This document shows, one piece after another, positions 2,366 through 18,494 of a stretch of DNA of 64,000 nt. Numbering within the stretch: position 1 is the first letter of the stretch; each line of letters begins with the position of its first letter. The notes below the pieces were generated by a model. It made no database searches. It was not told where the DNA came from and saw nothing but the letters and a program-made list of their open reading frames with translations. The position numbers and the translations under genes were made by a program. The stretch spans positions 1,560,980 through 1,624,979 of the forward strand of contig NC_011886.1 in assembly GCF_000022025.1 (NCBI RefSeq), given 5' to 3'. This stretch comes from Pseudarthrobacter chlorophenolicus A6. Its GTDB lineage: Bacteria > Actinomycetota > Actinomycetes > Actinomycetales > Micrococcaceae.

Positions 2366-2514
2366 AGTGGAGCCTTTCCGGATGTGGTGCCTGGCACCGC
2401 CTGGTGCGGGCCTGTTCAGGCTCCGCACGGATAACTGCCACAAGCCTATAACCCGTGCCGCCGGCTCAGCCCGCGCCGGCCATATGCTTCAGGCCACTCC
2501 GGCCATACAGAGGG

Positions 2515-2988
2515 TCAGCTTCCCTGCGGACCCCGCTCGAGCAGCGGCTGCACGCGGAAAGGGATGAGCTCGCCCATGGCCAGCGCAGTGTCCGCCCGTT
2601 CCACGCCATCGCACGCGAGGATTTTGCCGTTGATGCGGAAAAGGTCCTCGGCATCCTGGGCCACTACGCGCAGCAGCAGGTCTGCGGACCCGGTCAGGCC
2701 GTAGCCCTCCAGGATCTCCGGGATGGCCGCCAAATCCTGTGCCAGCCGGGTGAGCTTCTGCTGCTGGACGTGGACGGAAATGAAAGCCATCAGCGGGTAC
2801 CCCAGGGCGGCAGTATTGATCCTGCGTTCGAAGGACAGGAAGACGTGCTTCTTTTCGAGCTGGGCCATCCGCGCCTGCACAGTGTTCCTGGACAGTCCCA
2901 GTTTCTGCGCGAGGGCCACCACGGTCCTCCTGGGGTCCTGGGCCAGTGCCGAAAGCAGGCGGGTGTCAGTGCCATCCAGAGCTTGCAT
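2515..2988 (-). CDS. Lrp/AsnC-family regulator, candidate BkdR
   Basis: 157 residues from the ATG at 2988; the frame extends 10 codons further upstream, but family proteins begin at MQALDGTD. Residues 1-55 form the winged helix-turn-helix (LAQKLGLSRNTVQARMAQL), and the rest is the Lrp-type ligand-binding/oligomerisation domain (GSADLLLRV). It is transcribed away from bkdABC, starting 193 bp from it. Divergent Lrp-type BkdR activators of branched-chain oxoacid dehydrogenase operons are known in Pseudomonas, so this is the likely local regulator, responding to branched-chain amino acids or oxoacids. A dyad-symmetric site in the shared promoter region (3026-3049) fits an Lrp operator. Confidence 0.85.
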   Translation of the reverse strand: MQALDGTDTRLLSALAQDPRRTVVALAQKLGLSRNTVQARMAQLEKKHVFLSFERRINTAALGYPLMAFISVHVQQQKLTRLAQDLAAIPEILEGYGLTGSADLLLRVVAQDAEDLFRINGKILACDGVERADTALAMGELIPFRVQPLLERGPQGS

Positions 2989-3025
2989 AATGCGCAACGG
3001 TAGCACGGTGCAGACCACTGCCTTA

Positions 3026-3049
3026 GGGCATTCTGCTCAATAAATGCCC
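3026..3049. promoter_or_regulatory. Candidate Lrp/BkdR operator (perfect 7-bp dyad)
   Basis: GGGCATT at 3026-3032 and AATGCCC at 3043-3049 form a perfect inverted repeat with a 10-bp A/T-richer centre, in the intergenic region between the Lrp gene and bkdA. Size and position suit an Lrp/AsnC dimer. No binding data. Confidence 0.45.
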
Positions 3050-3072
3050 CGGTGGTTGTACCCCCTGAGCAT

Positions 3073-3088
3073 TGTGAGTAGGGTCACA
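3073..3088. promoter_or_regulatory. CRP/GlxR-type binding site upstream of bkdA
   Basis: The sequence TGTGAGTAGGGTCACA has both perfect CRP-family half-sites, TGTGA-N6-TCACA. It lies about 93 bp upstream of the bkdA start and 24 bp beyond the Lrp-type dyad. Actinobacterial CRP/GlxR proteins recognise this pattern, so cAMP-linked control of the bkd operon is likely. Confidence 0.7.
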
Positions 3089-3180
3089 GTATTCGGGCGA
3101 AGGGGCCCGGAAGGCCGCGGTTTGCAGGACCACAAGTCCCGGCTCCGCAGGTCACCGACGACAGAAGTTGCGGGGCTATC

Positions 3181-4368
3181 GTGTCTACAGACAAAACGGG
3201 CCAGGGCGGCGCACAAGCCCATGAGGGCGCCGGGGAATTTCAGGAGCCGGGGTCATCCGGCGTTCCGGTACAAGGGCTGGTCCAGCTGATCACACCGTCG
3301 GGGGAGCGGGTGAGCCATCCCGAATTCGATCTCTGGGTGCAGGACATCACGGACGAACACCTTTGCTCGCTATTCGAGGACATGACCGTCATCCGGCGCA
3401 TCGATGTCGAGGCAACGGCTCTCCAGCGCCAGGGCGAACTCGCCCTGTGGCCCCCTCTGCTGGGGCAGGAAGCGGCACAAATAGGATCCGGCAGGTCGCT
3501 GCGCAGCGACGATTTCGTCTTCTCCAGCTACCGTGAAAACGGTGTGGCCTACTGCCGCGGCGTGGACCTCACAGACCTCCTGCGGGTGTGGCGCGGCAAC
3601 GCCTCCGGCGGCTGGGATCCGTACGCCATCAACATGGCAACGCCCCAGATCATCATCGGCGCCCAGACCCTGCATGCCACCGGCTACGCCATGGGCATCC
3701 AGAACGACGGCGCAGATTCCGTGGCCGTCACCTATTTCGGTGACGGCGCGACGAGCGAGGGCGATGTCAATGAAGCCCTGGTCTTCGCGGCCAGCTTCCA
3801 GGCTCCCGTAGTGTTTTTTTGCACCAACAACCACTGGGCCATTTCGGAACCGGTCCGGCTCCAGTCGCACATCCAGCTCGCGGACCGCGCTGCCGGCTTC
3901 GGGATCCCCAGCCTGCGGGTGGACGGTAACGACGTCCTGGCCGTCATGGCGGCCACTCGCGTTGCCCTCGACCGGGCGCGGCGCGGCGGCGGGCCCACCT
4001 TCATCGAAGCCGTCACCTACCGGATGGGGCCGCACACCACCGCTGACGACCCCACCCGGTACCGCGACGCCAACGAACTGGAGGACTGGGCCGCCAAGGA
4101 CCCGATCAGCCGGGTGGCGGCGCTGCTGGAACGCAAGGGGCTCCTGACCGACGAACTGCAGGAACACGTCAGGAACAGCGCGGATGCCGTGGCCCGCGAG
4201 ATGCGGAAAGGCTGCACCACCATGCCGGACCCGCAGCCCATGGACGTTTTCAAGCACGTCTACAGCGCACCGAACTCGTGGCTGGACCGCCAGCAGGACC
4301 ACTACGCCCGTTACCTGGCCTCTTTCGGGGACTCCGCAGGTGCCGTTTCAGGAGAAGGTGCACGCTGA
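3181..4368 (+). CDS. bkdA: Branched-chain 2-oxoacid dehydrogenase E1 component, alpha subunit
   Basis: 395 residues from a GTG start; the ribosome site is weak, and the first ~30 residues (Gly/Ala-rich) are poorly conserved, so a later start is possible. It is the thiamine-diphosphate E1alpha subunit that decarboxylates branched-chain 2-oxoacids. The thiamine diphosphate/Mg motif begins GDGATSEGDVNEA at residue 187 and ends at the Asn pair near 215; the SSYRENG and RMGPHTTADDP motifs are also present. Its stop overlaps the bkdB start by one base. With bkdB and bkdC it forms the decarboxylase-acyltransferase part of the complex; no E3 gene is in the window. Branched-chain rather than pyruvate specificity is inferred from the neighbouring leucine-degradation operon. 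Confidence 0.9.
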   Translation: MSTDKTGQGGAQAHEGAGEFQEPGSSGVPVQGLVQLITPSGERVSHPEFDLWVQDITDEHLCSLFEDMTVIRRIDVEATALQRQGELALWPPLLGQEAAQIGSGRSLRSDDFVFSSYRENGVAYCRGVDLTDLLRVWRGNASGGWDPYAINMATPQIIIGAQTLHATGYAMGIQNDGADSVAVTYFGDGATSEGDVNEALVFAASFQAPVVFFCTNNHWAISEPVRLQSHIQLADRAAGFGIPSLRVDGNDVLAVMAATRVALDRARRGGGPTFIEAVTYRMGPHTTADDPTRYRDANELEDWAAKDPISRVAALLERKGLLTDELQEHVRNSADAVAREMRKGCTTMPDPQPMDVFKHVYSAPNSWLDRQQDHYARYLASFGDSAGAVSGEGAR

Positions 4369-5378
4369 TGACTTCCATGACCTTTGCCCGCGCCATCAAT
4401 GCGGGACTGCGCAAGTCGCTCGACCATGACCCCAAGGTTGTCCTTCTCGGTGAGGACATCGGCACCCTCGGCGGCGTGTTCCGGGTGACCGACGGACTGC
4501 AGAAGGACTTCGGCAAGCACCGCGTGGTGGACACGCCCCTGGCCGAATCCGCCATCGTGGGTGCCGCCGTCGGCCTTGCCTACCGCGGCTACCGCCCCGT
4601 GGTGGAAATCCAGTTCGACGGGTTCATCTATCCCGCGTTCGACCAGATTGTCAGCCAGGTGGCCAAGCTGCATTACCGCACCCGCGGCGCAGTGAAAATG
4701 CCCATCACCATCCGGGTGCCGTTCGGCGGCGGCATCGGCTCGCCGGAGCACCACTCCGAGTCGCCGGAAGCCTACTTCACGCACACCTCCGGACTGCGGG
4801 TGGTCACCGTTTCGAACCCCCAGGACGCGCACACGGTGATCCAGCAGGCTATCGCCAGCGACGACCCCGTTCTCTACTTCGAGCCGAAGCGGCGGTATCA
4901 CGACAAGGGCGAGGTGGATGAGGCCGCCGGACTGGACGCTGCAGTTCCAATGGGCCAGGCCAGGGTCCTGACCGACGGAACCGACGTCACCCTCGTGGCT
5001 TATGGCCCGCTGGTGAAGACCGCCCTGGACGCCGCCTCGGCTGCTGCCGACGAAGGCATCTCCATCCAGGTCATCGACCTGCGCTCGCTGTCACCGGTGG
5101 ACTACGGCACCGTGGTGGCTTCGGTCCGGAAGACCGGCCGCCTGGTGATCACGCACGAGGCCGGGCAGTCCGGCGGGCTGGGGGCCGAGGTGGCCGCCAG
5201 CATCACCGAGCGGTGCTTCTACCACCTGGAAGCCGCACCCGTCAGGGTTACCGGCTTCGACATCCCGTACCCCTATTCGAAACTCGAGATGCACCACCTG
5301 CCGGGCCTGGATCGGATCCTCGATGGCGTGGACCGTGCACTGGGGCGGCCGAATTCACTGAGCGGGCTGGAAGGATGA
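4368..5378 (+). CDS. bkdB: Branched-chain 2-oxoacid dehydrogenase E1 component, beta subunit
   Basis: 336 residues from the ATG at 4368, which shares a base with the bkdA stop and has GGAGAAGG upstream. The longer upstream frame (from 4278) is only bkdA read in another frame. The N-terminal half contains the transketolase pyrimidine-binding domain (LGEDIGTLGGVFRVT, DTPLAESAIVG), and the C-terminal half the transketolase C domain. E1alpha and E1beta form the alpha2beta2 heterotetramer that transfers the acyl group to the E2 lipoyl arm. Length is normal for the family. Translational coupling to both neighbours implies a fixed stoichiometry. Confidence 0.92.
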   Translation: MTSMTFARAINAGLRKSLDHDPKVVLLGEDIGTLGGVFRVTDGLQKDFGKHRVVDTPLAESAIVGAAVGLAYRGYRPVVEIQFDGFIYPAFDQIVSQVAKLHYRTRGAVKMPITIRVPFGGGIGSPEHHSESPEAYFTHTSGLRVVTVSNPQDAHTVIQQAIASDDPVLYFEPKRRYHDKGEVDEAAGLDAAVPMGQARVLTDGTDVTLVAYGPLVKTALDAASAAADEGISIQVIDLRSLSPVDYGTVVASVRKTGRLVITHEAGQSGGLGAEVAASITERCFYHLEAAPVRVTGFDIPYPYSKLEMHHLPGLDRILDGVDRALGRPNSLSGLEG

Positions 5379-6838
5379 GCGTCACCATGATCAAGGAATT
5401 CCGGCTTCCCGACCTCGGGGAAGGGCTCACCGAGTCAGAAATCCTCAGCTGGAAAGTGGCCGTGGGTGACACCGTCAGCCTGAACCAGGTCATTGCCGAG
5501 GTGGAGACAGCCAAGGCGGTGGTGGAGTTGCCGTCCCCTTTCGCCGGCGTCATCAGGGAACTGCATGAGCAGCCAGGGACGGTTGTTGAGGTGGGCAAGC
5601 CCATCGTCTCCTTCGAGGTAGCGGACGACGCCGGGCCGGCACCGGCGGGGCACGCCGCACCGTCGCAGGGCGTTACGCCAGCCGGGCAGGCGGCGGCGGG
5701 AGAGGAACCGGCGGCTCCCAAACGGGAACCCAACCTGGTGGGGTACGGTGCCGTCGTCGAAAGCTCCGGCCGGCCCGCGCGCCGCCCACGGATCTTTGCC
5801 CCGGTGGTTGAGCCCGCCGATGCCGGGTCCCCGGTGGTTGAGCCTGCCGATGCCGGGTCCCCGGTGGTTGAGCCTGCCGATGCCGGGTCCCCGGTGGTTG
5901 AGCCTGCCGAAACCATGGTTAGGGAGGCCCGGGCGGGCGTACCCTCCGGCGACCGGCCGCGCTCCACGCCTCCGGTCCGCAAGCTGGCCAGGGACCTCGG
6001 TGTTGACCTGGCGGTGGTTCCCGGCACCGGCCCGGAAGGCCTGATCACGCGCGAGGACGTCCGGGAGTTCCTGCGGCAGGGCAGTGCCGGGCAGCCCGAC
6101 GCGCCCGCCGGCCAGGCGCCTGCGGGGGACGGGGGAGAGCGGGAAACCCGGACGCCCATCAAGGGCGTCCGCAAGCACACGGCCGCCGCGATGGTCTCCA
6201 GCGCTTTCACCGCCCCGCACGCCACCGAGTTCCTCACCGTGGACGTCACCCCCACCATGGAGCTGCTGGCGAAACTGCGGGGGACCCGGGCGTTCGCCGG
6301 GCTCAAGCTGACACCTCTGACACTCGCCGCCAAGGCGGTGCTGATCGCGCTGCGCCGCCATCCGTCGCTGAACTCCCGCTGGGATGAGGCGAACCAGGAG
6401 ATCGTTACTTTCAACTACGTGAACCTGGGCGTCGCGGCTGCCACCCCGCGGGGACTGACGGTGCCGAACATCAAGGATGCGCACTCGCTGACCCTGGAGC
6501 AGCTGGCGGAGGCGCTGGCGGTGCTGGCGGACACCGCGCGGTCCGGGAAAACGGCGCCGTCAGACCTGTCCGGCGGAACCATGTCCATCACCAACATCGG
6601 CGTTTTCGGCATCGATGCCGGGACGCCCATCCTCAACCCCGGCGAAGCCGCCATCCTGGCATTGGGTGCCGTGCGGTCCATGCCGTGGGAGTACCGCGGT
6701 GAGGTGGCCCTGCGGCAGGTGATGACCCTGAGCCTGTCCTTCGACCACCGCCTGGTGGACGGTGAGCAGGGCTCCCGGTTCCTGGCCGACGTCGGGGCAG
6801 TCCTGGCAGAGCCGGGAATGGTCCTGACAATGGTCTGA
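5375..6838 (+). CDS. bkdC: Branched-chain 2-oxoacid dehydrogenase E2, dihydrolipoamide acyltransferase
   Basis: 487 residues from ATG 5375 (overlaps the bkdB stop); ATG 5387 is an alternative with better spacing to GGAAGG. A single lipoyl domain spans about 5-80, with lipoyl lysine K47 in VETAKAVVE. The Pro/Ala/Gly linker contains three perfect PVVEPADAGS repeats plus part of a fourth (residues about 143-180). The peripheral-subunit (E3/E1) binding domain is near 200-234, and the catalytic domain ends with the active-site motif H458-R-L-V-D-G. The enzyme transfers the branched acyl group from lipoyl to CoA in the complex core. The repeat-bearing linker is unusual; see the repeat entry. Confidence 0.92.
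   Translation: MSVTMIKEFRLPDLGEGLTESEILSWKVAVGDTVSLNQVIAEVETAKAVVELPSPFAGVIRELHEQPGTVVEVGKPIVSFEVADDAGPAPAGHAAPSQGVTPAGQAAAGEEPAAPKREPNLVGYGAVVESSGRPARRPRIFAPVVEPADAGSPVVEPADAGSPVVEPADAGSPVVEPAETMVREARAGVPSGDRPRSTPPVRKLARDLGVDLAVVPGTGPEGLITREDVREFLRQGSAGQPDAPAGQAPAGDGGERETRTPIKGVRKHTAAAMVSSAFTAPHATEFLTVDVTPTMELLAKLRGTRAFAGLKLTPLTLAAKAVLIALRRHPSLNSRWDEANQEIVTFNYVNLGVAAATPRGLTVPNIKDAHSLTLEQLAEALAVLADTARSGKTAPSDLSGGTMSITNIGVFGIDAGTPILNPGEAAILALGAVRSMPWEYRGEVALRQVMTLSLSFDHRLVDGEQGSRFLADVGAVLAEPGMVLTMV
5801..5914 (+). repeat. 30-bp in-frame tandem repeat in the E2 linker
   Basis: A 30-bp unit occurs at 5801-5830, 5831-5860 and 5861-5890 (units differ by a single C/T), followed by a partial fourth copy that diverges after 20 bp. 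The unit encodes PVVEPADAGS. The last copy continues as GGTTGAGCCTGCCGAAACC, which on the other strand is one base off GTTTCGACAGGCTCAACCAC, a short sequence I remember as widely dispersed in Micrococcales genomes. Confidence 0.9.
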
Positions 6839-6858
6839 CTCCGCCCGGAACCAGGACG

Positions 6859-7521
6859 TCAGCGCGTTTGCGGGCTGTCCACCGTCAGTGCGGCGAGCGC
6901 CATCTCCTCGAGCAGCGGCCGGGCTGCGGCCGCCATCCGGCGGCCGTGGCTCCGGACCGAGTGCGGGGTGGAGTTGATCAGCCCGAACGTGGCGTGCGCC
7001 CGGGTCCGGAGTTCGGCGGCGTCCGTGCCGGGGTGGAGCCTGGACAGGACATCCACCCACACCTCCACGTAGCTGCGCTGCAGCGCCCGCACGGCTGACT
7101 GGTCCTGTTCGGAGAGGTTGCTGAGGTCCCGGTCCTGCACGCGGATCACCTCGGGTTTGCCGAGGGCGAAGTCCACCTGGAACTCCACGAGGCGGCGCAG
7201 GGCCAGGCGCGGATCCGCGTTCTCTGCGACCACCTTCCGCCCGCCGTCCAGCAGCTCCCGGCTGACGGTGGCCAGCAGGTCCGCCAGGACAGCCTGCTTG
7301 CCGGGGAAGTGCCGGTAGACGGCCGGTCCGCTGACCCCCGCCGCCGCTCCGAGGTCTTCGAGGGAAACGCTCTTGAACCCGTTGACGGCGAACAGCGAAG
7401 CGGCCGCGGCAAGCAGGGCCTGGCGGCGGTCTTCCTTGGCTTTGCTGCGCTGGGTTGCGCCGGCGGGCCGGGCGGCGGGGGCGTCAGTCCCGGTGCTGTT
7501 GGCTTCATCGGTTGTGGGCAC
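6859..7521 (-). CDS. TetR-family repressor, candidate regulator of the leucine/isovalerate operon
   Basis: 220 residues. After a Thr/Ala-rich N-terminal stretch the HTH lies about residues 45-75 (SLEDLGAAAGVSGPAVYRHF), followed by an all-helical ligand-binding domain. It is convergent with bkdC (20 bp apart) and divergent from the carboxylase operon, 178 bp from it. The M. tuberculosis homologous locus also carries a TetR gene (Rv2506). Two matching palindromes in the shared promoter are the likely operators. The ligand is probably an acyl-CoA of the pathway, by inference from position. Confidence 0.85.
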   Translation of the reverse strand: MPTTDEANSTGTDAPAARPAGATQRSKAKEDRRQALLAAAASLFAVNGFKSVSLEDLGAAAGVSGPAVYRHFPGKQAVLADLLATVSRELLDGGRKVVAENADPRLALRRLVEFQVDFALGKPEVIRVQDRDLSNLSEQDQSAVRALQRSYVEVWVDVLSRLHPGTDAAELRTRAHATFGLINSTPHSVRSHGRRMAAAARPLLEEMALAALTVDSPQTR

Positions 7522-7562
7522 ATTTCCTCCTCAAACCCGCAGAGTCTAACAAGGCTGCCGCC

Positions 7563-7578
7563 TGTGTTGGACATCACA
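7563..7578. promoter_or_regulatory. CRP/GlxR-like site upstream of the carboxylase operon
   Basis: TGTGTTGGACATCACA matches TGTGA-N6-TCACA at 9 of 10 half-site bases. It abuts the first TetR-type palindrome and lies about 120 bp upstream of accD1. Together with the perfect site before bkdA it suggests shared cAMP-linked control of both leucine operons. Confidence 0.55.
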
Positions 7579-7594
7579 GTTAATAGAGACTAAC
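7579..7594. promoter_or_regulatory. TetR-type operator, copy 1
   Basis: GTTAATAGAGACTAAC: inverted half-sites GTTANT and ANTAAC around a 4-bp centre. The second copy has the same architecture with its centre 26 bp away. Located between the divergent TetR gene and the carboxylase operon. Confidence 0.65.
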
Positions 7595-7604
7595 CTGAAT
7601 TTCA

Positions 7605-7620
7605 GTTACTGGGCACTAAC
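7605..7620. promoter_or_regulatory. TetR-type operator, copy 2
   Basis: GTTACTGGGCACTAAC: same GTTANT-N4-ANTAAC layout as copy 1. Paired sites suggest cooperative binding of two TetR dimers. A further TCTAAC half-site-like sequence lies near 7544-7549. Confidence 0.65.
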
Positions 7621-7699
7621 CGAGTCCGTTGTTTGGTGGCCTTGCCCACTGACCTTTGCCACCGGATTTGCCCGCCGAATGAGAGAACAGGAAGCGTCG

Positions 7700-9307
7700 A
7701 TGGAGACCCTTGCCAGCAGGCTGGACCCCTCAAGCGGGGCTTTCGCCGCCAACAGGAATGCGCAGCTGCAACTGGTGGAGGACCTCCGGAAACGGCTGGC
7801 GGACGCTGCCCTGGGAGGCCCGCAGAAGTCGCGTGAACGGCACGTGGCCAGGGGCAAGCTCCTGCCGCGGGAGCGCATCGACCAGCTGCTGGATGACGGC
7901 AGCCCGTTCCTTGAGATCGCTCCGCTGGCAGCCAACGGAATGTACAACGATGATGCACCGGGCGCGGGCGTGATTGCCGGCATCGGACTGGTGCACGGCC
8001 GCCAGGTGCTGGTGATCTCCAACGACGCCACCGTCAAGGGCGGCACCTACTATCCCATGACGGTCAAGAAGCATCTCCGCGCCCAGGAAATCGCCCTCGA
8101 AAACAACCTGCCGTGCATCTACCTGGTGGACTCGGGCGGAGCGTTCCTGCCCAGGCAGGACGAGGTCTTTCCGGACAAGGACCATTTCGGGCGGATCTTC
8201 TACAACCAGGCACGCCTGTCCGCGGCAAAGATCCCCCAGCTGGCCGCCGTGATGGGCTCCTGCACCGCGGGCGGCGCCTACGTCCCGGCAATGAGTGACG
8301 AAACCGTGATTGTCCGGAACCAGGGCACCATCTTCCTGGGCGGGCCGCCCCTGGTGAAGGCCGCAATCGGAGAGATCGTCACCGCCGAGGAGTTGGGCGG
8401 CGGTGACGTGCATTCCAGGATCTCCGGCGTGACGGACCACCTGGCCGACAATGACGAACACGCGCTGCAGATCCTTCGCGACATCGTGGCCACCCTGCCG
8501 CCCGCTGCGGCGCCAGCCTGGCAGGTGGAACCCGCCGTCGAGCCGGCCGAGGACCCGGAGGGGATCTACGGTGCCGTGCCCGTGGACGTCAACGCCCCGT
8601 ACGACGTCGGCGAGGTGATTGCCCGGCTGGTGGACGCCAGCAGGTTCCACGAGTTCAAGAAGGACTACGGCACCACCCTGGTTACCGGGTTCGCCAGGAT
8701 CCACGGGCACCCCGTAGGGATCGTGGCGAACAACGGCGTCCTTTTCAGCGAGTCCTCGCTCAAGGGCGCACACTTCATCGAACTTTGCGACCAGCGGGGG
8801 ATTCCACTCCTCTTCCTGCAGAACATTTCCGGCTTCATGGTGGGCCGGGACGCCGAGCAGGGCGGCATCGCCAGGAACGGCGCCAAGATGGTCACGGCGG
8901 TAGCCACAGCGCGGGTTCCCAAGCTGACGGTGGTGATCGGCGGATCGTTCGGCGCAGGAAACTACTCGATGTGCGGCCGCGCCTATTCCCCGCGGTTCCT
9001 CTGGATGTGGCCCGCGGCAAGGATCTCGGTGATGGGCGGGAACCAGGCCGCCAGCGTGCTGGCCACGGTCAAACGCGACCAGTTCGAGGCCGCCGGGGAA
9101 GACTGGCCGGCGCAGGATGAGGAAGAGTTCAAAGCCCCCATCCGCCGGCAGTACGAGGACCAGGGGAGCCCCTACTACTCCACTGCCCGCCTCTGGGATG
9201 ACGCCGTCATCGATCCCGCTGACACCCGGACCGTCCTGGGCCTTGCCCTGGACGTTGTCTCCCGCACGCCACTGCCGGAGACCTCCTTCGGCCTGTTCAG
9301 GATGTGA
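7700..9307 (+). CDS. accD1: Acyl-CoA carboxylase beta subunit, 3-methylcrotonyl-CoA carboxylase type
   Basis: 535 residues from ATG 7700, chosen over ATG 7679 because AGGAAG sits about 6 bp upstream of it and the length fits MccB/AccD1. It is the carboxyltransferase that moves CO2 from biotin to the acyl-CoA (3-methylcrotonyl-CoA in leucine breakdown). Two crotonase-fold halves are visible: the N half with [15 protein letters not shown] and [15 protein letters not shown], the C half with [11 protein letters not shown] and [16 protein letters not shown], the latter typical of methylcrotonyl rather than propionyl carboxylases. First gene of the operon; its stop overlaps the accA1 GTG start. AccA1-AccD1 of M. 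tuberculosis has been shown to be a methylcrotonyl-CoA carboxylase, which supports this assignment. Confidence 0.92.
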
Positions 9308-11517
9308 GCCGGCACATGACCACGCCTTCATTGACCTCCACCGCCACCACTTCCGCCGACGCCACCCCGGCGTCCGGCCAGCCGTTGTTCGGCACCGTCC
9401 TGGTGGCGAACCGGGGAGAGATCGCCTGCCGGGTGATCCGAACCCTGCGTGCCCTGGGAATCCGCTCCGTGGCCGTGTACAGCGATGCCGACGCCGGCGC
9501 CCGGCACGTGCGCGAGGCTGACACGGCCGTGCGGATCGGCCCCGCCGCCGCCACCGAAAGCTACCTCAAAATCGGCAACATCATTGCCGCGTGCCGGGAG
9601 TCCGGCGCCGAAGCCGTGCACCCGGGCTACGGGTTCCTCAGCGAAAATGCAGACTTCGCCCGCGCCCTGGACGCTGCGGGAATCGCGTTCATGGGCCCCG
9701 GGGTGGAAGCGCTCAACATCATGGGCGACAAGATCCGCTCCAAGAACCATGTGGCCGGCTACGGCGTCCCGGTGGTACCCGGCGTTGCCAGGCCCGGCAT
9801 GACTGACGCGGAACTGATCGAAGCAGCCCCCGCCGTCGGCTTCCCCCTGTTGATCAAGCCGTCCGCCGGCGGTGGCGGCAAGGGCATGCATGTGGTGGAG
9901 AAACCCGGCGACCTTCCGGCCGTCCTGGCCACCGCCCGGCGCGTGGCCGCGAGCGCCTTCGGTGACGACACCCTATTCCTGGAACGCCTGGTCACCACCC
10001 CCCGCCATATCGAAGTGCAGGTGCTGGCGGACAGCCACGGCAACGTCATCCACCTGGGCGAACGCGAATGCTCCCTGCAGCGCAGGCACCAGAAAGTGAT
10101 CGAGGAGGCACCGTCGCCGCTGCTCGAGGGCCTGCCCCACGGGGCCGACGTCCGGGACCGCATCGGTGAGGCCGCCTGCAACGCCGCGCGCAGCGTCAAC
10201 TACACGGGCGCGGGTACCGTGGAATTCCTGGTCTCCGATGACGCGCCGGACGAGTTCTTCTTCATGGAGATGAACACCCGCCTCCAGGTGGAGCACCCTG
10301 TCACCGAAATGGTCACCGGACTGGACCTCGTGGAATGGCAGGTGCGCATCGCCGCCGGCGCGGAACTCACCGTCCGGCAGGCCGACGTCGAACTTTCCGG
10401 CCATGCGGTGGAGGCGCGCGTCTACGCCGAGGTGCCGGAGAAGAACTTCCTGCCGTCCACCGGAACCGTGTACCTGCTCGACGAGTTGCCCGGTGATGCC
10501 GGCGGCCGGATCCGCGTGGACTCGTCCCTGGTGGAAGGGCTCCAGCTGTCCTCCAGCTACGATCCCATGCTGTCCAAGGTCATCGCCTGGGGAGCGGACC
10601 GGGCCGAGGCTTTGGACACGCTGGACCGGGCGCTCGCCGGGTACACAGCACTGGGTGTGGACACCAATGTCGAATACCTGCGGCTCCTGGTCAACGATCC
10701 CGAGGTCCGGGCCGGCCGGCTCGACACAGGACTGATCGCCCGGAAGCTGCCTGGCCTTGCGTTCCGCCAGGTGGGGGAGGTTGAACTCGTGGCCGCGGCG
10801 CTCGCCTCCGTGGCAGTCACGGCAGCGTCCGCCAAGGCAGCGTCCGCCACCCGGGAGAGCAATTCCAGCGGAAGCCCGTGGCAGGCACGCAGCGGCTGGC
10901 GGCTGGGGGCACCGGCACCCCGCCGGGTGAGCCTTGGAACGCCCGACGGCGGAGTGGCCACCATAGCTCTCTACGGGGACCCCGCATCCGGCCCGGTTGA
11001 GGTAACGGTCGACGGCGGCACGCGCCACACAGCGGTGCTGCGCCTTTCCGGGCCAGGCCATGCGGAGCTGACCCTGGACGACGCTGTGCACGGCTTCTCC
11101 GTGGCACCGGCGCCGGAAGCCCCGGCGCACATCTACCTCGGCAACGGAGGCTGGTCCTGCCGCCTGGAGGTCCTGACCCGGGAGGCGCGGCTGGAACGGG
11201 TCCGGGCAGCCATCCAAAGGGACGAAGGCGATGCCGATCCTGCCGTGCGCTCGCCGATGCCCGGCACGGTGGTGTCCGTCCCGGTCAAGGACGGCGACGC
11301 CGTCGAGGCGGGCCAGGTCCTCGCGTCCGTCGAGGCCATGAAGATGGAGCACCAGCTGGTGGCGCCGCTGGCCGGGACCGTTCACCTGGCCGCCAAACCC
11401 GGAGACCTGGTCAAGGCGGACCAGGTCCTGGCCACCATCCATCCCGCACCACGTTCCGAAAATACCCGGGACAACAGCACGAACGGTGAAACCACCAACG
11501 GCGAAGGAGCCCAGTAG
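9304..11517 (+). CDS. accA1: Acyl-CoA carboxylase alpha subunit (biotin carboxylase + biotin carrier)
   Basis: 737 residues from GTG 9304 (overlapping the accD1 stop) or 733 from ATG 9316. Residues about 25-475 form the biotin carboxylase ATP-grasp module ([39 protein letters not shown]). A middle linker/BT region follows, and the biotinyl domain is at the C-terminus with the biotinylated lysine K680 in EAMKMEH. It carboxylates its own biotin with ATP and bicarbonate and hands CO2 to the beta subunit. The C-terminal 20 residues are Asn/Thr-rich and disordered. Ends 2 bp before the dehydrogenase gene. Confidence 0.92.
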
Positions 11518-11519
11518 AC

Positions 11520-12695
11520 ATGTCCGGCTTTGAACTCAGCGAGGAATACCAGGACCTCAGCGACACCGTCCGGGACTTCGCGGACAACGTGGTGGCCCCG
11601 GTGTCCGCCAAGCACGACGAGGAACACAGCTTTCCCTACGAAGTGGTCAAGCAGATGGCCGACATGGGCCTCTTCGGCCTGCCGTTCCCCGAAGAGTACG
11701 GCGGCATGGGCGGAGACTACTTCGCCCTCGCCCTGGCACTGGAGCAGCTGGGGCGGGTGGACCAGTCCGTGGCCATCACCCTGGAAGCAGGCGTTTCCCT
11801 CGGAGCCATGCCGGTCTACCGTTTCGGGACCGAAGAACAGAAGCAGCAATGGCTGCCCCAGCTGGCCTCGGGCCAGGCGCTCGCCGGGTTCGGCCTGACC
11901 GAACCCGAGGCAGGTTCGGACGCCGGCGGGACCAAGACGCACGCGCACCGGGAGTCCGTGGGGGACAAGACCGAGTGGGTGATCAACGGCAACAAGGAAT
12001 TCATCACCAACTCGGGGACGGACATCACCAGGCTGGTCACGGTCACCGCAGTTACCGGGCAGCATGACCGCGGGGACGGCACGGTCCGGAAGGAAATCTC
12101 CACCATCCTGGTGCCCACCGACACGCCCGGCTTCAAGGCAGAAAAGGCGTACAACAAGGTGGGCTGGAACGCCTCGGACACGCACCCGCTGACCCTGAAG
12201 GACGTCCGGGTGCCGGAAGCGAACCTGCTGGGCGAGGAGGGCCGGGGCTACGCCAACTTCCTGTCCATCCTTGATGAGGGCCGCATCGCCATCGCCGCCC
12301 TCGCCACCGGAGCAGCCCAGGGTTGCGTTGACCTGTCGGTCCGGTACGCCAGGGAACGCAAGGCGTTCGGCCACGAAATCGGCAAGTACCAGGCAATCTC
12401 GTTCAAGATCGCCCGCATGGAGGCGAGGGCCCACACGGCCCGCCTGGCCTATTACGACGCAGCCGCCAGGATGTTGGCCGGCAAGCCGTTCAAGACCCAG
12501 GCGGCCATCGCTAAGATGGTCGCAGGTGAGGCGGCCATGGACAACGCGCGGGATGCCACCCAGGTATTCGGCGGCTATGGCTTCATCAACGAGTTCACCG
12601 TGGCCCGCCACTACCGCGACTCCAAGATCCTTGAAGTGGGGGAGGGCACCACGGAGGTCCAGCTGATGCTGATCGCCCGCGAACTGGGACTGTAG
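11520..12695 (+). CDS. Acyl-CoA dehydrogenase (FadE19-like, isovaleryl/2-methylbutyryl-CoA step)
   Basis: 391 residues, FAD-dependent. N-terminal helical domain, middle beta domain ([18 protein letters not shown]) and C-terminal helical domain ([20 protein letters not shown]). The catalytic base appears to be E375 in VGEGTTEV, the position used by short/medium-chain and 2-methyl-branched enzymes. The alternative site used by classical isovaleryl-CoA dehydrogenases, within the LDEGR stretch near residue 255, has Gly where those enzymes have Glu. Context (between the carboxylase and the CoA-transferase) points to isovaleryl-CoA to 3-methylcrotonyl-CoA, with possible activity on other branched acyl-CoAs. 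Electrons would go to ETF. Confidence 0.88.
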
Positions 12696-12741
12696 CGGCC
12701 GGTTCGCTGCACCCGGGACTGTAGCCGGCCTGAAAGGATCG

Positions 12742-13512
12742 ATGATGATTGACAAGGTTGTTGCAAGCGCCGACGAGGCTGTGGCGGACATTCCGGACGG
12801 TTCCTCGCTGGCCGTGGGCGGGTTCGGCCTCTGCGGCATACCGGTCACCCTCATTGACGCCCTGCACCGGGCCGGCACGTCAGGGCTGGAAACCGTCAGC
12901 AATAACTGCGGCGTGGACGACTGGGGGCTGGGCATCCTGCTCCGCGACGGCAGGATCCGGCGCACCATCAGCTCCTACGTGGGCGAGAACAAGGAGTTCG
13001 CCCGGCAATACCTGGCCGGCGAACTGGAAGTGGTGCTGACCCCGCAGGGCACCCTGGCCGAGAAACTCCGGGCCGGCGGCGCGGGCATCCCCGCCTTCTA
13101 CACCAAGGCGGGGGTCGGTACCCAGGTGTCCGACGGCGGCCTGCCGCAGAAATACGACGCCGACGGCGGCATTGCGGTCGCCTCAGCCCCCAAGGAGGTC
13201 CGCCCCTTCGGCGGGGTGGACTATGTGCTCGAGGAAGCCCTCACCCCGGACTTCGGCCTGGTCCATGCCTGGAAGGGCGACCGGCACGGGAACCTGGTGT
13301 TCCACGCCACGGCCATGAACTTCAATCCGCTCTGCGCCATGGCAGGAAGGGTCACCATCGCCGAGGTGGAGGAACTCGTGGAGCCCGGCGAACTGGACCC
13401 CGAACACATCCACACCCCCGGCATCTTCGTGCAGCGGGTGGTACTGGCTCCTGACGCGGAAAAACGCATCGAAAAGCGGACTGTTGCCATCAGCCGGGAG
13501 GCAGGAGCATGA
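12742..13512 (+). CDS. scoA: Succinyl-CoA:3-oxoacid CoA-transferase subunit A
   Basis: 256 residues; start at ATG 12742 or 12745, after GAAAGGA. Family I CoA-transferase alpha subunit with the early glycine-rich [10 protein letters not shown] motif and the [11 protein letters not shown] segment. With subunit B it moves CoA between succinyl-CoA and 3-oxoacids such as acetoacetate, the final product of leucine cleavage, making acetoacetyl-CoA available for thiolysis. In the related M. tuberculosis locus the pair is ScoA/ScoB, also discussed as an itaconate-activating transferase. Four-base stop/start overlap with scoB implies coupled translation. Confidence 0.9.
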
Positions 13513-14321
13513 ACATGCAGAAAACCGGGGCACAGAGCGCCGGCACGGAACCGAACAGCCCCGACGCACCGCGGCCCGAAGCCGTCCGCCACGAGTACCG
13601 CCGCTCGGCTTCCCAGCCGCACGCGGGAGCCGCCGGTTCCACGGCACCGGCGGACAGCAAGGGCTGGACGCGCAATGAGCTGGCGGCCCGGGTGGCCAAG
13701 GAACTCCATAACGGCCAATACGTGAACCTCGGCATCGGCATGCCCACGCTGATCCCCAACTACATTCCGGACGGCGTGGAAGTGGTGCTCCACTCGGAAA
13801 ACGGCATCCTGGGCGTCGGACCCTACCCGGCAGAAGACGCCATCGATCCGGACCTGATCAACGCCGGCAAGGAAACCGTCACGGTCAACAAGGGCGCTGC
13901 GTTCTTCGATTCGGCGGCGTCGTTCGGCATGATCCGCGGCGGGCACGTGGATGTCGCCGTCCTGGGTGCCATGGAAGTTGCGGCCAACGGGGACCTCGCA
14001 AACTGGATGATCCCGGGCAAGATGGTCAAAGGCATGGGCGGTGCCATGGACCTGGTGTTCGGGGCCAAACGGGTGATCGTGATGATGGAACACGTGGACC
14101 GGAACGGCAAACCGAAGATCGTCCAGCAGTGTTCGCTGCCGCTGACCGGCAAGGGCTGCGTGGACCGGATCATCACGGACCTGGCCGTCATCGACGTGGT
14201 CCGCGACAGCTCCGGATCCCGCCTGGTGCTGCAGGAACTGGCGCCGAACGTCTCGGTGGAGGATGTCATCGCTGCCACCGGCGCGGACCTTTTCGAGGAA
14301 GACCGGGAACTGACGGTATGA
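13509..14321 (+). CDS. scoB: Succinyl-CoA:3-oxoacid CoA-transferase subunit B, with N-terminal extension
   Basis: 270 residues from ATG 13509 (ATG 13515 also possible). The catalytic glutamate is E97 in the SENG motif, which forms the glutamyl-CoA thioester. The family domain starts about residue 52 ([14 protein letters not shown]), so roughly 50 N-terminal residues, rich in Ala, Pro, Ser and Arg, are extra compared with typical 210-220-residue B subunits. No start codon with good spacing is evident nearer the domain, and the extension begins exactly at the overlap with scoA, so it may be real and unstructured. Ends in an ATGA overlap with the MaoC gene. Confidence 0.88.
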
Positions 14322-14845
14322 CGGACAAGGTTTCGACGGGCCCAGCCACCGGGGCCCGGGTTATTGAACAGCGCGGGCTGTACTACGACGAATTGGAAGA
14401 GGGCGTGGTCTACGCTCACCGTCCCGGCCGGACGGTGACCGAAGCGGACAACGTCCTGTTCACCACCCTCACCATGAACACCCAGGCCCTCCACCTCGAC
14501 GCCGCCTGGAGTGCCACCCAACCGTTCGGCCAGCGCCTGGTTAACTCAATGTTCACGCTGGCCACCCTGGTGGGCCAGTCCGTCACCCAGCTGACCCAGG
14601 GAACCATCATCGCGCAGCTGGGCCTGACCGATGTGTCCTTCCCGCACCCGCTGTACCACGGGGACACGCTCTACACGGAGACCGTCATCAGCGGCAAACG
14701 GCCCTCGGGCTCACGGCCGGGGCAGGGAATCGTCACCATGGAACATACCGGCCGGAACCAGGACGGCACCGTGGTGGCCCTGGCCACCCGCAGCTGCCTG
14801 ATGTGGACCCGTGCCGCGCACGCTGAGGCGCAACACGGAAAATAA
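14318..14845 (+). CDS. MaoC-family (R)-type enoyl-CoA hydratase, candidate 3-methylglutaconyl-/itaconyl-CoA hydratase
   Basis: 175 residues from ATG 14318 (overlapping the scoB stop); the longer frame from 14129 is scoB read out of frame. Single hotdog fold of the MaoC/NodN type, with the region around [14 protein letters not shown] corresponding to the hydratase active-site helix. In the equivalent M. tuberculosis locus this position is held by Rv2499c, proposed to hydrate the unsaturated CoA ester ahead of the CitE-like lyase. Here it would convert 3-methylglutaconyl-CoA to HMG-CoA, or itaconyl-CoA to citramalyl-CoA. The N-terminal codons resemble the dispersed repeat noted in the E2 linker (14329-14350). 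Confidence 0.82.
14329..14350 (-). repeat. Possible degenerate copy of the dispersed 22-bp element
   Basis: The 22 bases match the element ending the E2 linker repeat (consensus core GTTTCGACAGGCTCAACCAC on this strand) at 19 of 22 positions and form codons 5-11 of the MaoC gene. Chance resemblance cannot be excluded. Confidence 0.35.
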
Positions 14846-14878
14846 GCCCGGCACCAAAAATCATCGGAGAATGGCTGT

Positions 14879-15718
14879 ATGACCTTTGTGATGGGCCCCG
14901 CCCTCCTCTTCTGCCCCGCCGACCGGCCCGAGCGGTACCGGAAAGCCGCCGCCCGCGCCGACGCCGTCATCCTTGACCTCGAGGACGCCGTGGCCCCGGC
15001 GGACAAGCAGCGCGCCCGGGGCGCCATCCTTGCCCAGGTGGGTTCGACAGGCGAGGAACCCGAGCTCGATCCCAGCCGCACCATCATCAGGATCAACCCT
15101 GCGGGCACTGAAGAGTTCGAAAAAGACCTGCACTGCCTGGCGCACACGCCCTACAGGACGGTGATGCTGGCCAAAGCCGAAAGCGCGGACCAGCTCGCGG
15201 CGCTGGAGGGGTACCAGGTGGTGGCCCTGTGCGAAACGGCACTGGGTGTCCTGAACGCTCCCGCCATTGCCGCCGCCCCCAACGTCGTGGCGCTCATGTG
15301 GGGTGCCGAGGACCTGCTCGCCACCCTGGGCGGCACCTCCAGCAGGACGGACGACGGCGGCTACCGGGCCGTCGCCCTCCACGCCCGGTCAACGGTGCTG
15401 GTGGCTGCCCGGGCCTTCGGCAAGCAGGCCGTTGACGCCGTGTATGTCAACATCCCCGACACCGACGGGTTGGCCGCCGAAGCGGCCGATGCCGTCGCAT
15501 CGGGATTCAGCTCCAAAGCCTGTATCCACCCCACGCAGGCTGCCGTGGTGCAGGAAGCCTACGCACCGTCCGATGCCGACGTCGCCGCTGCCGCAGAGCT
15601 GCTGGACGCTGCCGCCGAGGCCGGCTCCGGCGTTTTCCGGCATCACGGGAAAATGATCGACGGGCCCATCCTCAAGCACGCCGAATCCATCCTCCGGCGG
15701 GCCGGCCAGAAAGCCTGA
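14879..15718 (+). CDS. citE: CitE-like beta-hydroxyacyl-CoA lyase (HMG-CoA/citramalyl-CoA lyase candidate)
   Basis: 279 residues, HpcH/HpaI-CitE TIM-barrel family; GGAGA lies 8 bp before the start. Visible motifs are LDLEDAVAP near residue 33 (substrate carboxylate loop), ALCETALGVLNAP with the Mg-binding Glu, MWGAEDL with the second Mg ligand, and KACIHPTQ near the C-terminus. No citrate-lyase alpha or gamma genes are present, so it is not part of citrate lyase. The M. tuberculosis counterpart Rv2498c is reported to cleave (R)-HMG-CoA and citramalyl-CoA, serving leucine and itaconate breakdown. Here it is the last gene of the operon and the only candidate for the HMG-CoA lyase step. Confidence 0.85.
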   Translation: MTFVMGPALLFCPADRPERYRKAAARADAVILDLEDAVAPADKQRARGAILAQVGSTGEEPELDPSRTIIRINPAGTEEFEKDLHCLAHTPYRTVMLAKAESADQLAALEGYQVVALCETALGVLNAPAIAAAPNVVALMWGAEDLLATLGGTSSRTDDGGYRAVALHARSTVLVAARAFGKQAVDAVYVNIPDTDGLAAEAADAVASGFSSKACIHPTQAAVVQEAYAPSDADVAAAAELLDAAAEAGSGVFRHHGKMIDGPILKHAESILRRAGQKA

Positions 15719-15762
15719 CCGTCCGGGGCGGTCCGTGGCCGGTCGGGCGGCCGGCTGCCCTG

Positions 15763-17232
15763 CTAGCCTTGCCGTCCCTGCGAGCGCCGCAGCGACAGGG
15801 GCGGGATGGGCTCCGAAAGGAACGCTCGCATCCAGCGGTTCCCGGACGCCCGGAACTCCGCCCGGGTGGCGAACCGGTAGTGGTACCGGCGCACGCGCAC
15901 CCAGCGCGGCGCACCGCCGTCGAACGGGTCATGCCGGAGCAGCCGCAGGGTGGTGCGGTCCGCTTCCAGCAGCTTGCCGAGGAAGGCATAGAACCATTCC
16001 TCGTGGACGGTCCGCAGCGGCAAGAACCACATCAGCCAGTCCAGCCTCAAATGGTACGGCGCCCACTGGCGGGGTACCCGGCGCACGTCACCGGGCTTGC
16101 CCTTGAACCCGTATTCACGCCAGTCAGAGGAATCATCGGGGTCATCGTCGAGGGTTCCCGACACCACGATTTCAATCCGTTCCTTGGTCACAGTTCCGAA
16201 GGCGCCGTAGGCGTTGACCAGCTGCCAGCGGTTGAAACTGGCGTTCATCAACTGGCGGCGCGAGAACAGGTTGCGCAGCGGCTGGTAGCTCAGCGCCAGC
16301 AGCAGGGCCGTGGCCGTCAGCGTGAAGGCCAGCCACCACAGGGGCGTTTCCGGCGTGCCGGGATGCCAGTCCAGCGGGATCACAGGCAGGACAGCATGGG
16401 CCACCGGATCGCTGACCGCAGCGAACGCCAGCACAATCGCTATCCAGTTCAGCCAGGCGAAGTTCCCGGACGCCACCAGCCAGAGCTGGGTGGCGATGAT
16501 GATGGCTGCAGCGGCGCTGCCCACCGGCTGGGGAGCAAACAGCAGGAACGGCACCACCAGCTGGGCGAAGTGGTTGCCAACCACTTCGACCCGGTGGAAC
16601 GGCTTGGGCAGCAGGTGGGCCTGCCTGCTCAGCGGACCCGGCATGGGCTGGGTTTCGTGGTGGTAGTAGAGGGCGGTGAGGTCCCGCCATTCGCGGCCGC
16701 CGCGGATCTTGATCATCCCGGCACCGAATTCGAGCCGGAACACCAGCCACGCAATTAGGATCAGGATGCTCCGCGGCGGATCGGTTTGGTCCGAGCCCAG
16801 GAAGGCCACGGTGAATCCGGCCTCCAGCAGCAGCATCTCCCAGCCGAAGCCATAGAACGTCTGGCCCACGTTCACGATGGACATGTACAGCAGCCACAGG
16901 GCCAGGAAAGCGATCAGGGGCACCCATGGCGGTCCCAGCTGAGGAACGCCGGCTACCAGGAGGGCCGAGACCACCAGCCCGGTTGCACAGACGCCCCGCA
17001 GCAAGCCGTCCGAGTAGCCCCAACGGAACAGGGTAGGCCGGCGCAGGCGGCTGAAACCAGCCAGGTAGTCGGGGGCCGGCAGCAGTCCACGCTCACCCAA
17101 CAGGGCCGGGAACTGGTTGAGCGAGGACAGGAACGCCACGAAGAACAGCGCGGCCACCCCCCGCTGCAGCACCTGACGCGCGAACTCGTAGTCCGCCGCA
17201 TCGAACCAGGAAAGCCAGTCCACGAAATCCAC
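15763..17232 (-). CDS. Lipase maturation factor-like multi-pass membrane protein
   Basis: 489 residues from GTG 17232 (GTG 17223 also possible); the frame runs further upstream but only through non-conserved Arg-rich sequence overlapping dxr. About eight or more hydrophobic segments, with the family motif around RGVAALFFVAFLSSLNQFPALLGERGLLP near the N-terminus and GQTFYGFGWEMLLLEAGF. The C-terminal part (PRQWAPYHLRLDWLMWF, then EEWFYAFLGKLL) is the conserved extracytoplasmic LMF1-like domain. In animals LMF1 helps lipases fold in the ER; the bacterial role is unknown. Divergent from dxr with 77 bp between starts. Confidence 0.82.
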   Translation of the reverse strand: MDFVDWLSWFDAADYEFARQVLQRGVAALFFVAFLSSLNQFPALLGERGLLPAPDYLAGFSRLRRPTLFRWGYSDGLLRGVCATGLVVSALLVAGVPQLGPPWVPLIAFLALWLLYMSIVNVGQTFYGFGWEMLLLEAGFTVAFLGSDQTDPPRSILILIAWLVFRLEFGAGMIKIRGGREWRDLTALYYHHETQPMPGPLSRQAHLLPKPFHRVEVVGNHFAQLVVPFLLFAPQPVGSAAAAIIIATQLWLVASGNFAWLNWIAIVLAFAAVSDPVAHAVLPVIPLDWHPGTPETPLWWLAFTLTATALLLALSYQPLRNLFSRRQLMNASFNRWQLVNAYGAFGTVTKERIEIVVSGTLDDDPDDSSDWREYGFKGKPGDVRRVPRQWAPYHLRLDWLMWFLPLRTVHEEWFYAFLGKLLEADRTTLRLLRHDPFDGGAPRWVRVRRYHYRFATRAEFRASGNRWMRAFLSEPIPPLSLRRSQGRQG

Positions 17233-17309
17233 GTTACGCCCGGCCGCGGCGGGGTCAAGGCGTGCAGGATGCGGCGCACCGGACCACGACGGTGCGGGAT
17301 ACTTAACCC

Positions 17310-18494
17310 ATGCAGCCACGCAGAATCGCCATCCTCGGATCCACCGGTTCCATCGGCACCCAGGCAATTGACGTCGTCGACGGCGCCCCGCATCTTTTCG
17401 AGGTCGTGGCCCTGAGCGCCGGAGGCGGCAACCTCGCGCTCCTGGCCAGGCAGGCCGTCCACACCGGTGCGGCGGCCGTCGGGATCGCCGCCGGAGACCC
17501 ACGCGAGCTTGCCGTGCTCATCGATGAAGCAGCCGCCGCAGCGGGCCGCTCCGGCTACCGCCCGGAGATCATCGCCGGACCGGATGCCTCCACGCGGATC
17601 GCCGGGCTTGATGCGGATGTTGTGCTCAACGGCATCACCGGCTCCATCGGCCTTGCACCCACCCTTGCCGCGCTGAAGTCCGGCGCCACGCTGGCGCTGG
17701 CCAACAAGGAATCGCTGATCGTCGGCGGTTCGCTGGTAAAGGCTGCTGCGCGCGACGGGCAGATTGTTCCCGTGGACTCCGAGCACTCCGCCATCGCCCA
17801 ATGCCTGCGCTCGGGCAGCGCAGCGGAAGTGGACAAGCTGGTACTCACCGCCTCCGGCGGGCCCTTCCGCGGCCGGAGCGGGGAAGAACTGCACGGGGTC
17901 ACCCCGCAGGAAGCCCTCGCCCACCCCACCTGGGACATGGGGCTGATGGTCACCACCAACTCCGCCACCCTGGTCAACAAGGGACTCGAAGTCATCGAAG
18001 CCCACCTCCTGTTCGACATTCCGCTGGACCGGATCGACGTGGTGGTCCATCCCCAGTCCGTGGTGCACTCCATGGTGCAGTTCGTGGACGGCTCCACCAT
18101 TGCGCAGGCCTCCCCGCCGGACATGCGGCTGCCCATCGCGCTGGGGCTTGGGTGGCCGGGCCGGGTACCCAATGCCGCCGCGCCGTGCGACTGGACCAAG
18201 GCAGCCACCTGGACCTTCGAGCCGCTGGACGCAACAGCCTTTCCCGCCGTGGACCTTGCCAAGGACGCAGCGAAGCAGGGGAGTACCTTCCCCGCGGTCT
18301 TCAATGCCGCCAACGAGGAAGCCGTCACCGCCTTCCACGGCGGGCGGATCCGCTTCACGGACATCGTGGACACCGTGGATGCCGTCCTCAGCGAACACAC
18401 AGGTTCTTCCCGGCTGACGGTGGAATCCGTGCTGGATGCTGAGAGCTGGGCACGGGCCCGCGCGCACGAACGTTTAGCAGTCAGCAGTCTCTAG
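17310..18494 (+). CDS. dxr: 1-deoxy-D-xylulose-5-phosphate reductoisomerase
   Basis: 394 residues, normal length. Second step of the non-mevalonate (MEP) isoprenoid pathway: NADPH-dependent conversion of DXP to MEP. NADPH-binding GSTGSIG at residues 9-15, [11 protein letters not shown], and the metal/substrate motif [12 protein letters not shown] are all present, followed by ASGGPFRG and NAANEEAV. The upstream sequence GGATACT ends 8 bp before the ATG, suggesting a -10 element very close to the start and a short or absent leader. It is followed after 18 bp by the M50 protease gene, a conserved pairing in bacteria, with ispG of the same pathway 3 kb downstream. Confidence 0.95.

Follow-up and report, generated by a model that had tools for sequence, protein, structure and literature searches.

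A BkaR-type locus of Pseudarthrobacter chlorophenolicus A6 with a MaoC-CitE pair, probably for leucine catabolism through (R)-3-hydroxy-3-methylglutaryl-CoA

We analyzed a stretch of 64,000 nucleotides from the genome of Pseudarthrobacter chlorophenolicus A6 (hereafter referred to as the window), in which positions 3181-15718 contain eleven genes, all uninterrupted frames in the list of open reading frames (ORFs). With a probability of about 85%, this locus serves the catabolism of leucine and isovalerate by a route through (R)-3-hydroxy-3-methylglutaryl-CoA (HMG-CoA), under the control of a BkaR-like TetR regulator, with maoC-citE as a cassette exchangeable with the gene for the classical HMG-CoA lyase (HMGL family). 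The observations bearing on this reading concern gene content and order, operators, the conservation of residues, the mutual exclusivity of the two lyase types and the pairing of maoC with citE.

Gene content and the proposed hydratase-lyase pair

From homology and gene linkage, we infer the enzymatic steps and their stereochemistry. BkdABC would yield isovaleryl-CoA, which FadE would convert into 3-methylcrotonyl-CoA, and AccD1-AccA1 would carboxylate the latter to 3-methylglutaconyl-CoA. MaoC would then hydrate this intermediate to (R)-HMG-CoA, the Rv2498c-type lyase would cleave it to acetyl-CoA and acetoacetate, and ScoAB would convert acetoacetate into acetoacetyl-CoA. The eleven genes do not include the further members of the leucine pathway (aminotransferase, E3 subunit, thiolase), and no search was made for them elsewhere.

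The best PDB match of the CitE-like protein was Rv2498c of Mycobacterium tuberculosis (270.9 bits), the next protein being human CLYBL (117.9 bits). The eight residues contacting the metal, carboxylate, hydroxyl and methyl groups named in excerpts of PMC6689899 were located by eye on the alignment to Rv2498c, and all are present in the window protein. They were kept in 90 to 97 of 97 loci; these were the loci with a match of at least 200 bits among that of the window, 37 from the class, 80 named ones and 10 others. According to the same excerpts, Rv2498c cleaves both (R)-HMG-CoA and (S)-citramalyl-CoA but does not cleave citryl-CoA, and it is required for growth on leucine and itaconate, the rv2498c mutant failing on leucine (PMC6689899). 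Two other identities were rejected on their scores: citrate lyase beta CitE (TIGR01588; 136.6 bits, cut-off 443.4) and RipC/Ccl (NCBIfam NF038242; 145.3 bits, cut-off 375).

The relatives of MaoC are mesaconyl-CoA hydratase and RipB/Ich, identity with the latter being rejected (NCBIfam NF038241; 149.8 bits, cut-off 340). Residues N54, L58, H59 and D61 were kept in 92 of 92 loci, the asparagine presumably occupying the position of the aspartate in PhaJ-type (R)-specific enoyl-CoA hydratases. We propose, from sequence, that MaoC is the 3-methylglutaconyl-CoA hydratase. This assignment is not new, because a hydratase role in branched-chain degradation had already been proposed for its mycobacterial counterpart, Rv2499c (PMC3920632, in part); the available portion of PMC6689899 does not name Rv2499c and treats the itaconate-route transferase and hydratase as unidentified. 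What our comparison suggests is the stereochemical pairing of MaoC with the CitE-like lyase.

AccD1 was nearer to the beta subunit of 3-methylcrotonyl-CoA carboxylase (MCC) than to that of propionyl-CoA carboxylase. It matched PDB chain 9yx0_G with 883.2 bits, mycobacterial AccD1 with 875.6 bits and the MCC beta subunit of P. aeruginosa with 760.7 bits, whereas propionyl-CoA carboxylases gave at most 284.6 bits, save one chain so named (9tps, 758.8 bits). In mycobacteria, AccA1 and AccD1 together form a 3-methylcrotonyl-CoA carboxylase (PMC4347857, excerpts). ScoA and ScoB scored above the cut-offs of their 3-oxoacid CoA-transferase models.

The features of the locus are as follows (window positions):

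3181-4368, +, bkdA, E1 alpha of 2-oxoacid dehydrogenase; GTG start as in the ORF list (predicted)
4368-5378, +, bkdB, E1 beta; ATG within the bkdA stop
5375-6838, +, bkdC, lipoyl E2
6859-7521, -, tetR, BkaR-like TetR regulator; above the cut-off of the NCBIfam SACE_7040 family, best PDB chain 4g12
7579-7594, +, predicted BkaR-type operator 1; no mismatch to the published core (motif from excerpts of PMC3920632)
7605-7620, +, predicted BkaR-type operator 2; perfect match to the same core (same excerpts)
7679-9307, +, accD1, 3-methylcrotonyl-CoA carboxylase beta
9304-11517, +, accA1, alpha subunit with biotin carboxylase and biotin carboxyl carrier protein
11520-12695, +, fadE, acyl-CoA dehydrogenase (FadE19/AcdH position)
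12742-13512, +, scoA, 3-oxoacid CoA-transferase A
13509-14321, +, scoB, 3-oxoacid CoA-transferase B
14318-14845, +, maoC, proposed 3-methylglutaconyl-CoA hydratase forming (R)-HMG-CoA
14879-15718, +, citE-like, proposed Rv2498c-type (R)-HMG-CoA lyase

The genes form two units, bkdA-bkdB-bkdC (3181-6838, +) and accD1-accA1-fadE-scoA-scoB-maoC-citE (7679-15718, +), with intergenic gaps of -4 to 46 bases within both. The start of maoC was set at 14318, within the end of scoB, in preference to the longer ORF-list frame from 14129. An initial annotation of this DNA had named the set correctly (bkdABC, AccD1/AccA1, an acyl-CoA dehydrogenase, CoA-transferase A/B, MaoC and a CitE-like protein, all of which are present) and had described two adjacent, divergently controlled units. 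The units are indeed adjacent, but both lie on the + strand. The one divergent pair is tetR (-) and accD1; on its other side, tetR converges with bkdC, with 20 bases between the two genes.

Lyase types at the locus in the class and the family

An even draw of 98 genomes from a larger group covering the class (17 outside the 90%/5% quality line) contained 38 AccD1 loci, in 37 genomes, with thresholds of at least 70% identity for AccD1, at least 200 bits for a strong CitE, at least 180 bits for a strong MaoC and the NCBIfam NF004283 cut-off of 246 bits for HMGL. HMGL was present at 17 loci, maoC with citE at nine, neither at 12 and both at none (P = 0.0018 for zero overlap in 38 loci, a value that ignores relatedness). 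No taxonomic family had both types at the locus (HMGL in seven families, CitE in four). The AccD1 tree, a better guide than this P value, implied at least three changes between the HMGL and CitE types when the 12 "neither" rows were left out, with 9 of its 35 inner branches open. Some of the locus stretches stop at contig ends (that of L045 is only 7 kb long), so a few of the 12 loci with neither type may be cut.

In this sample, maoC adjoined citE in 15 of the 17 genomes with a strong CitE (the exceptions being G054 and G037), and all 15 MaoC matches of at least 180 bits were neighbors of CitE. The pair lay away from the AccD1 locus in six genomes (G088, G038, G072, G056, G024 and G061). Over whole genomes, the 37 with AccD1 comprised 7 with CitE only, 22 with HMGL only, 7 with both and one with none (G085). 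The last of these, without an above-cut-off HMGL or a strong CitE, has a second kind of cluster (L062, 6718-14821) with distant relatives of maoC (52%), citE (37%), accA1, accD1 (38%) and fadE.

The same regulator-carboxylase locus in other actinomycetes appears to carry a classical HMG-CoA lyase gene replacing the maoC-citE pair. The pair would be exchanged as one cassette because hydratase and lyase must presumably agree in stereochemistry, which fits the Streptomyces cluster with LiuE but without liuC (PMC9636800, in part). On balance, we favor the view that actinomycete leucine catabolism has two mirror-image versions at one regulated locus, one with a lone (S)-lyase and a hydratase encoded elsewhere, the other with a linked cassette of (R)-hydratase and (R)-lyase; that swaps of this whole cassette have occurred on at least three occasions; and that MaoC (Rv2499c type) is the matched, (R)-forming 3-methylglutaconyl-CoA hydratase.

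Within the family, an even draw of 120 genomes from a larger group (3 outside the quality line) contained AccD1 in 99, CitE in 105 and an above-cut-off HMGL in 12. All 99 genomes with AccD1 had CitE (Fisher P = 1e-14, ignoring relatedness), and it lay within 10 kb of AccD1 in 96; in the other three, the genes were on different contigs (G133 and G202) or 25 kb apart (G213). Fifteen genomes had neither gene. Among the best 80 of 567 named loci, a selection leaning to close relatives, the nearest was that of Arthrobacter sp. Leaf137 (97% in both CitE and AccD1); accD1 was found in 73, maoC in 76 and scoAB in 40, and there was one HMGL match, at 26% (L118). In the same selection, the tetR-to-citE order of the window, judged by eye, recurred in 29 of 30 loci from Arthrobacter, Pseudarthrobacter, Paenarthrobacter and Sinomonas, the single exception (L076) having citE at a contig end.

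Regulator and operators

The best PDB chain for the regulator, 4g12, is taken here to be the product of M. tuberculosis Rv2506. Two perfect operator copies, at 7579 and 7605, lie within the 157-base gap between tetR and accD1, so that the promoter region of the TetR gene contains two copies of GTTANTNNNNANTAAC, as expected of a BkaR regulon. No other perfect copy was found in the window, in which three further sites had two mismatches, and the motif scan of the window detected no BkaR-type operator upstream of bkdA. The pattern occurred perfectly at six places genome-wide, and with at most one mismatch at 18, versus 13 for the reversed control; as this frequency is little above the control, it is the clustering of operators that counts. 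The four other perfect matches (G000:C3 1548604, 1734643, 1857861 and 2535908) all read GTTACT-N4-AGTAAC, which sets them apart from the accD1 pair, and could be sites of a different regulator.

A site with at most one mismatch was present near the accD1 start in 24 of the 38 class loci (HMGL 13/17, CitE 6/9, neither 5/12), and two of the three CitE loci lacking it (L027 and L033) had sites elsewhere in the locus. The regulator and operator are therefore part of the locus irrespective of its lyase type. We infer that the BkaR-like TetR may repress both itself and the accD1-citE unit through the two operators. In a bkaR mutant of M. smegmatis, the genes from accD1 to bkdC were derepressed, citE and Rv2499c included (PMC3920632, excerpts). 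The promoter scan found 1 site versus 1.1 expected, and no convincing terminator was detected 3' of citE (fold z -0.54), terminator-like sites in 2400-16200 numbering 7 versus 7.5 by chance.

Alternative assignments and related systems

The same gene set as in the window is present in M. tuberculosis Rv2495c-Rv2506 and M. smegmatis MSMEG_4710-4718 (BkaR regulon, AccA1-AccD1, Rv2498c), with the same type of regulator and of operator pair and a lyase that is the best match of the window lyase and shares its active-site residues. The order differs: bkdABC is upstream of tetR here and at the operon end there, scoAB lies between fadE and maoC here, and the window has no fadD35 gene. For M. tuberculosis, the order compared is in part the one we take to hold. 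Whole loci of Mycobacterium and Mycolicibacter run accD1-accA1-fadE-maoC-citE, with bkdABC after these genes (L133, L138) or scoAB before them (L111, L119, L142), each in some loci. The locus comparison thus bears out the claim of a shared but rearranged gene set, and it is largely right to describe the locus as the known mycobacterial route, rearranged, and as the usual one in the family.

The Streptomyces liu cluster (sco2775-sco2779), as seen in the class loci, has the regulator, accD1, accA1 and acyl-CoA dehydrogenase arranged as in the window. Unlike the window, it contains an HMGL-family lyase (LiuE) and has no hydratase gene, maoC, citE or scoAB. According to excerpts of PMC9636800, this cluster lacks liuC, tests of four crotonase candidates had no clear outcome, and all five query genes of this cluster type occur in 4.5% of Actinobacteria strains and more than 52% of Streptomyces. 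The either/or pattern sets off such clusters, whose hydratase gene is still missing (PMC9636800, in part), and gives the linked MaoC a sharp stereochemical assignment. Our search of the open-access literature, with most subscription journals outside it, yielded no paper on the either/or pattern and none on the route in Micrococcaceae or Arthrobacter; the either/or swap of a hydratase-lyase pair at a single regulated locus may be new. The (R)-HMG-CoA route, reported as unprecedented in one pathogen, looks ordinary for leucine in a large family of soil bacteria. It could therefore be studied outside the pathogen, in harmless strains, and the lyase need not be taken for a special adaptation to host itaconate.

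Several observations weigh against the (R)-HMG-CoA reading. BkdA scored above the cut-off of a pyruvate dehydrogenase E1 alpha model (TIGR03181); a branched-chain role is therefore assigned to it from the operon and from its mycobacterial relatives. The glutamate of the FadE motif GEGT, kept in 93 of 93 loci, is in what we take to be the base position of short-chain acyl-CoA dehydrogenases rather than isovaleryl-CoA dehydrogenase, and the FadE substrate is consequently deduced from gene position. In the class, the 12 loci with neither lyase type beside AccD1 must be added, together with the seven AccD1 genomes in which a strong CitE coexists with an above-cut-off HMGL, and G024 and G061 (L057, L058), which have the maoC-citE pair without AccD1 at the 70% threshold. 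In the family, six genomes have CitE without AccD1 (G138, G139, G162, G163, G185 and G203), and 12 of the 99 AccD1 genomes also hold an above-cut-off HMGL elsewhere: on the contig of AccD1 in four, at least 35 kb away, and on other contigs in eight. Finally, broad-specificity crotonases encoded elsewhere in the P. chlorophenolicus genome, which has seven crotonase-family matches, could hydrate the intermediate. Among the matches listed in an NCBIfam scan of these seven, none was to a model named for methylglutaconyl-CoA hydratase, though one of the seven may still be such an enzyme.

These crotonases bear on the very improbable alternative in which the leucine flux runs through a classical HMG-CoA lyase and a crotonase from other loci and MaoC-CitE is accessory. 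The initial annotation had reported no HMGL-family lyase or crotonase-type methylglutaconyl hydratase, which holds for the region, where profile searches placed none of the eleven gene products in the HMGL or crotonase families. The genome search for an HMGL that it had called for found none above the NF004283 cut-off in P. chlorophenolicus; the genome does contain the crotonase-family matches and one HMGL-like protein. The latter is one of three PF00682 matches, the other two, judged by frame length, probably being LeuA (584 aa) and a pyruvate carboxylase (1136 aa). It has 326 aa and carries what we take to be the catalytic motifs of HMG-CoA lyase, but scored 193.5 and 193.6 bits in two scans against the cut-off of 246. 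Its gene lies outside the window in an operon (L011 6005-12625; G000:C3:209000-228000) of a GntP permease, a CoA-transferase III, the HMGL-like lyase, a glyoxylate/hydroxypyruvate reductase and a glycerate kinase, with an IclR gene on the opposite strand. These neighbors point to a free hydroxy-dicarboxylate, not leucine, as the substrate. The 12 HMGL-bearing genomes of the family speak for a classical lyase, whereas 87 of the 99 with AccD1 lack one above the cut-off, and the HMGL of one genus mate (G002), although above it, has genes for a CoA-transferase III and an IclR protein as neighbors.

It is improbable that the MaoC-CitE pair serves mainly to degrade itaconate, through itaconyl-CoA and citramalyl-CoA, with leucine use secondary. 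Rv2498c is almost as active on (S)-citramalyl-CoA as on (R)-HMG-CoA (PMC6689899, in part), RipB and RipC are the nearest NCBIfam models, and G024 and G061 have pairs without AccD1. The itaconate system RipABC (Ict-Ich-Ccl) likewise combines a hot-dog hydratase with a PF03328 lyase, acting on CoA esters of parallel stereochemistry. Nevertheless, both window proteins are far below the RipB and RipC cut-offs given above, CitE accompanies AccD1 in every AccD1 genome of the family, and the adjoining CoA-transferase, ScoAB, is of the 3-oxoacid type. A profile search of the genome found no PF02550 protein, the family to which RipA presumably belongs, although other CoA-transferase types could serve. 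The genomes with CitE but without AccD1 (six in the family, two in the class) are candidates for another use, such as itaconate. A main role of the CitE-like enzyme as a malate/methylmalate synthase-thioesterase acting on glyoxylate is exceedingly improbable: Rv2498c has weak activity of this kind, but its kcat/Km of about 100, versus 390,000, makes it thousands of times less efficient (PMC6689899, excerpts), and glyoxylate is not a known product of any enzyme of the operon. The proposal, already made in the initial annotation, that MaoC-CitE acts in the leucine route draws support from the pairing of the two genes at MCC loci without HMGL and from the conserved regulator and operator pair. 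The pair may also have the side role in itaconate breakdown that the annotation suggested.

The operon of the HMGL-like protein looks like an undescribed route, in which a hydroxy-dicarboxylate would be activated, its CoA ester split and a C3 acid fed to glycerate. Itatartarate is a guess at the substrate; two Pseudomonas papers describe no such lyase route in the parts available.

Upstream of bkdA, on the same strand, positions 31-1587 (+) encode an MctC-type monocarboxylic acid transporter, above its NCBIfam cut-off, a possible uptake partner of the leucine locus. The translation of bkdC contains, at about 5800-5910, a tandem repeat in the E2 linker, in which the ten residues PVVEPADAGS occur three times in full and a fourth time in part. 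Between citE and dxr, positions 15763-17502 (-) encode a bacterial homologue of the lipase maturation factor LMF1, with both Pfam LMF1 domains.

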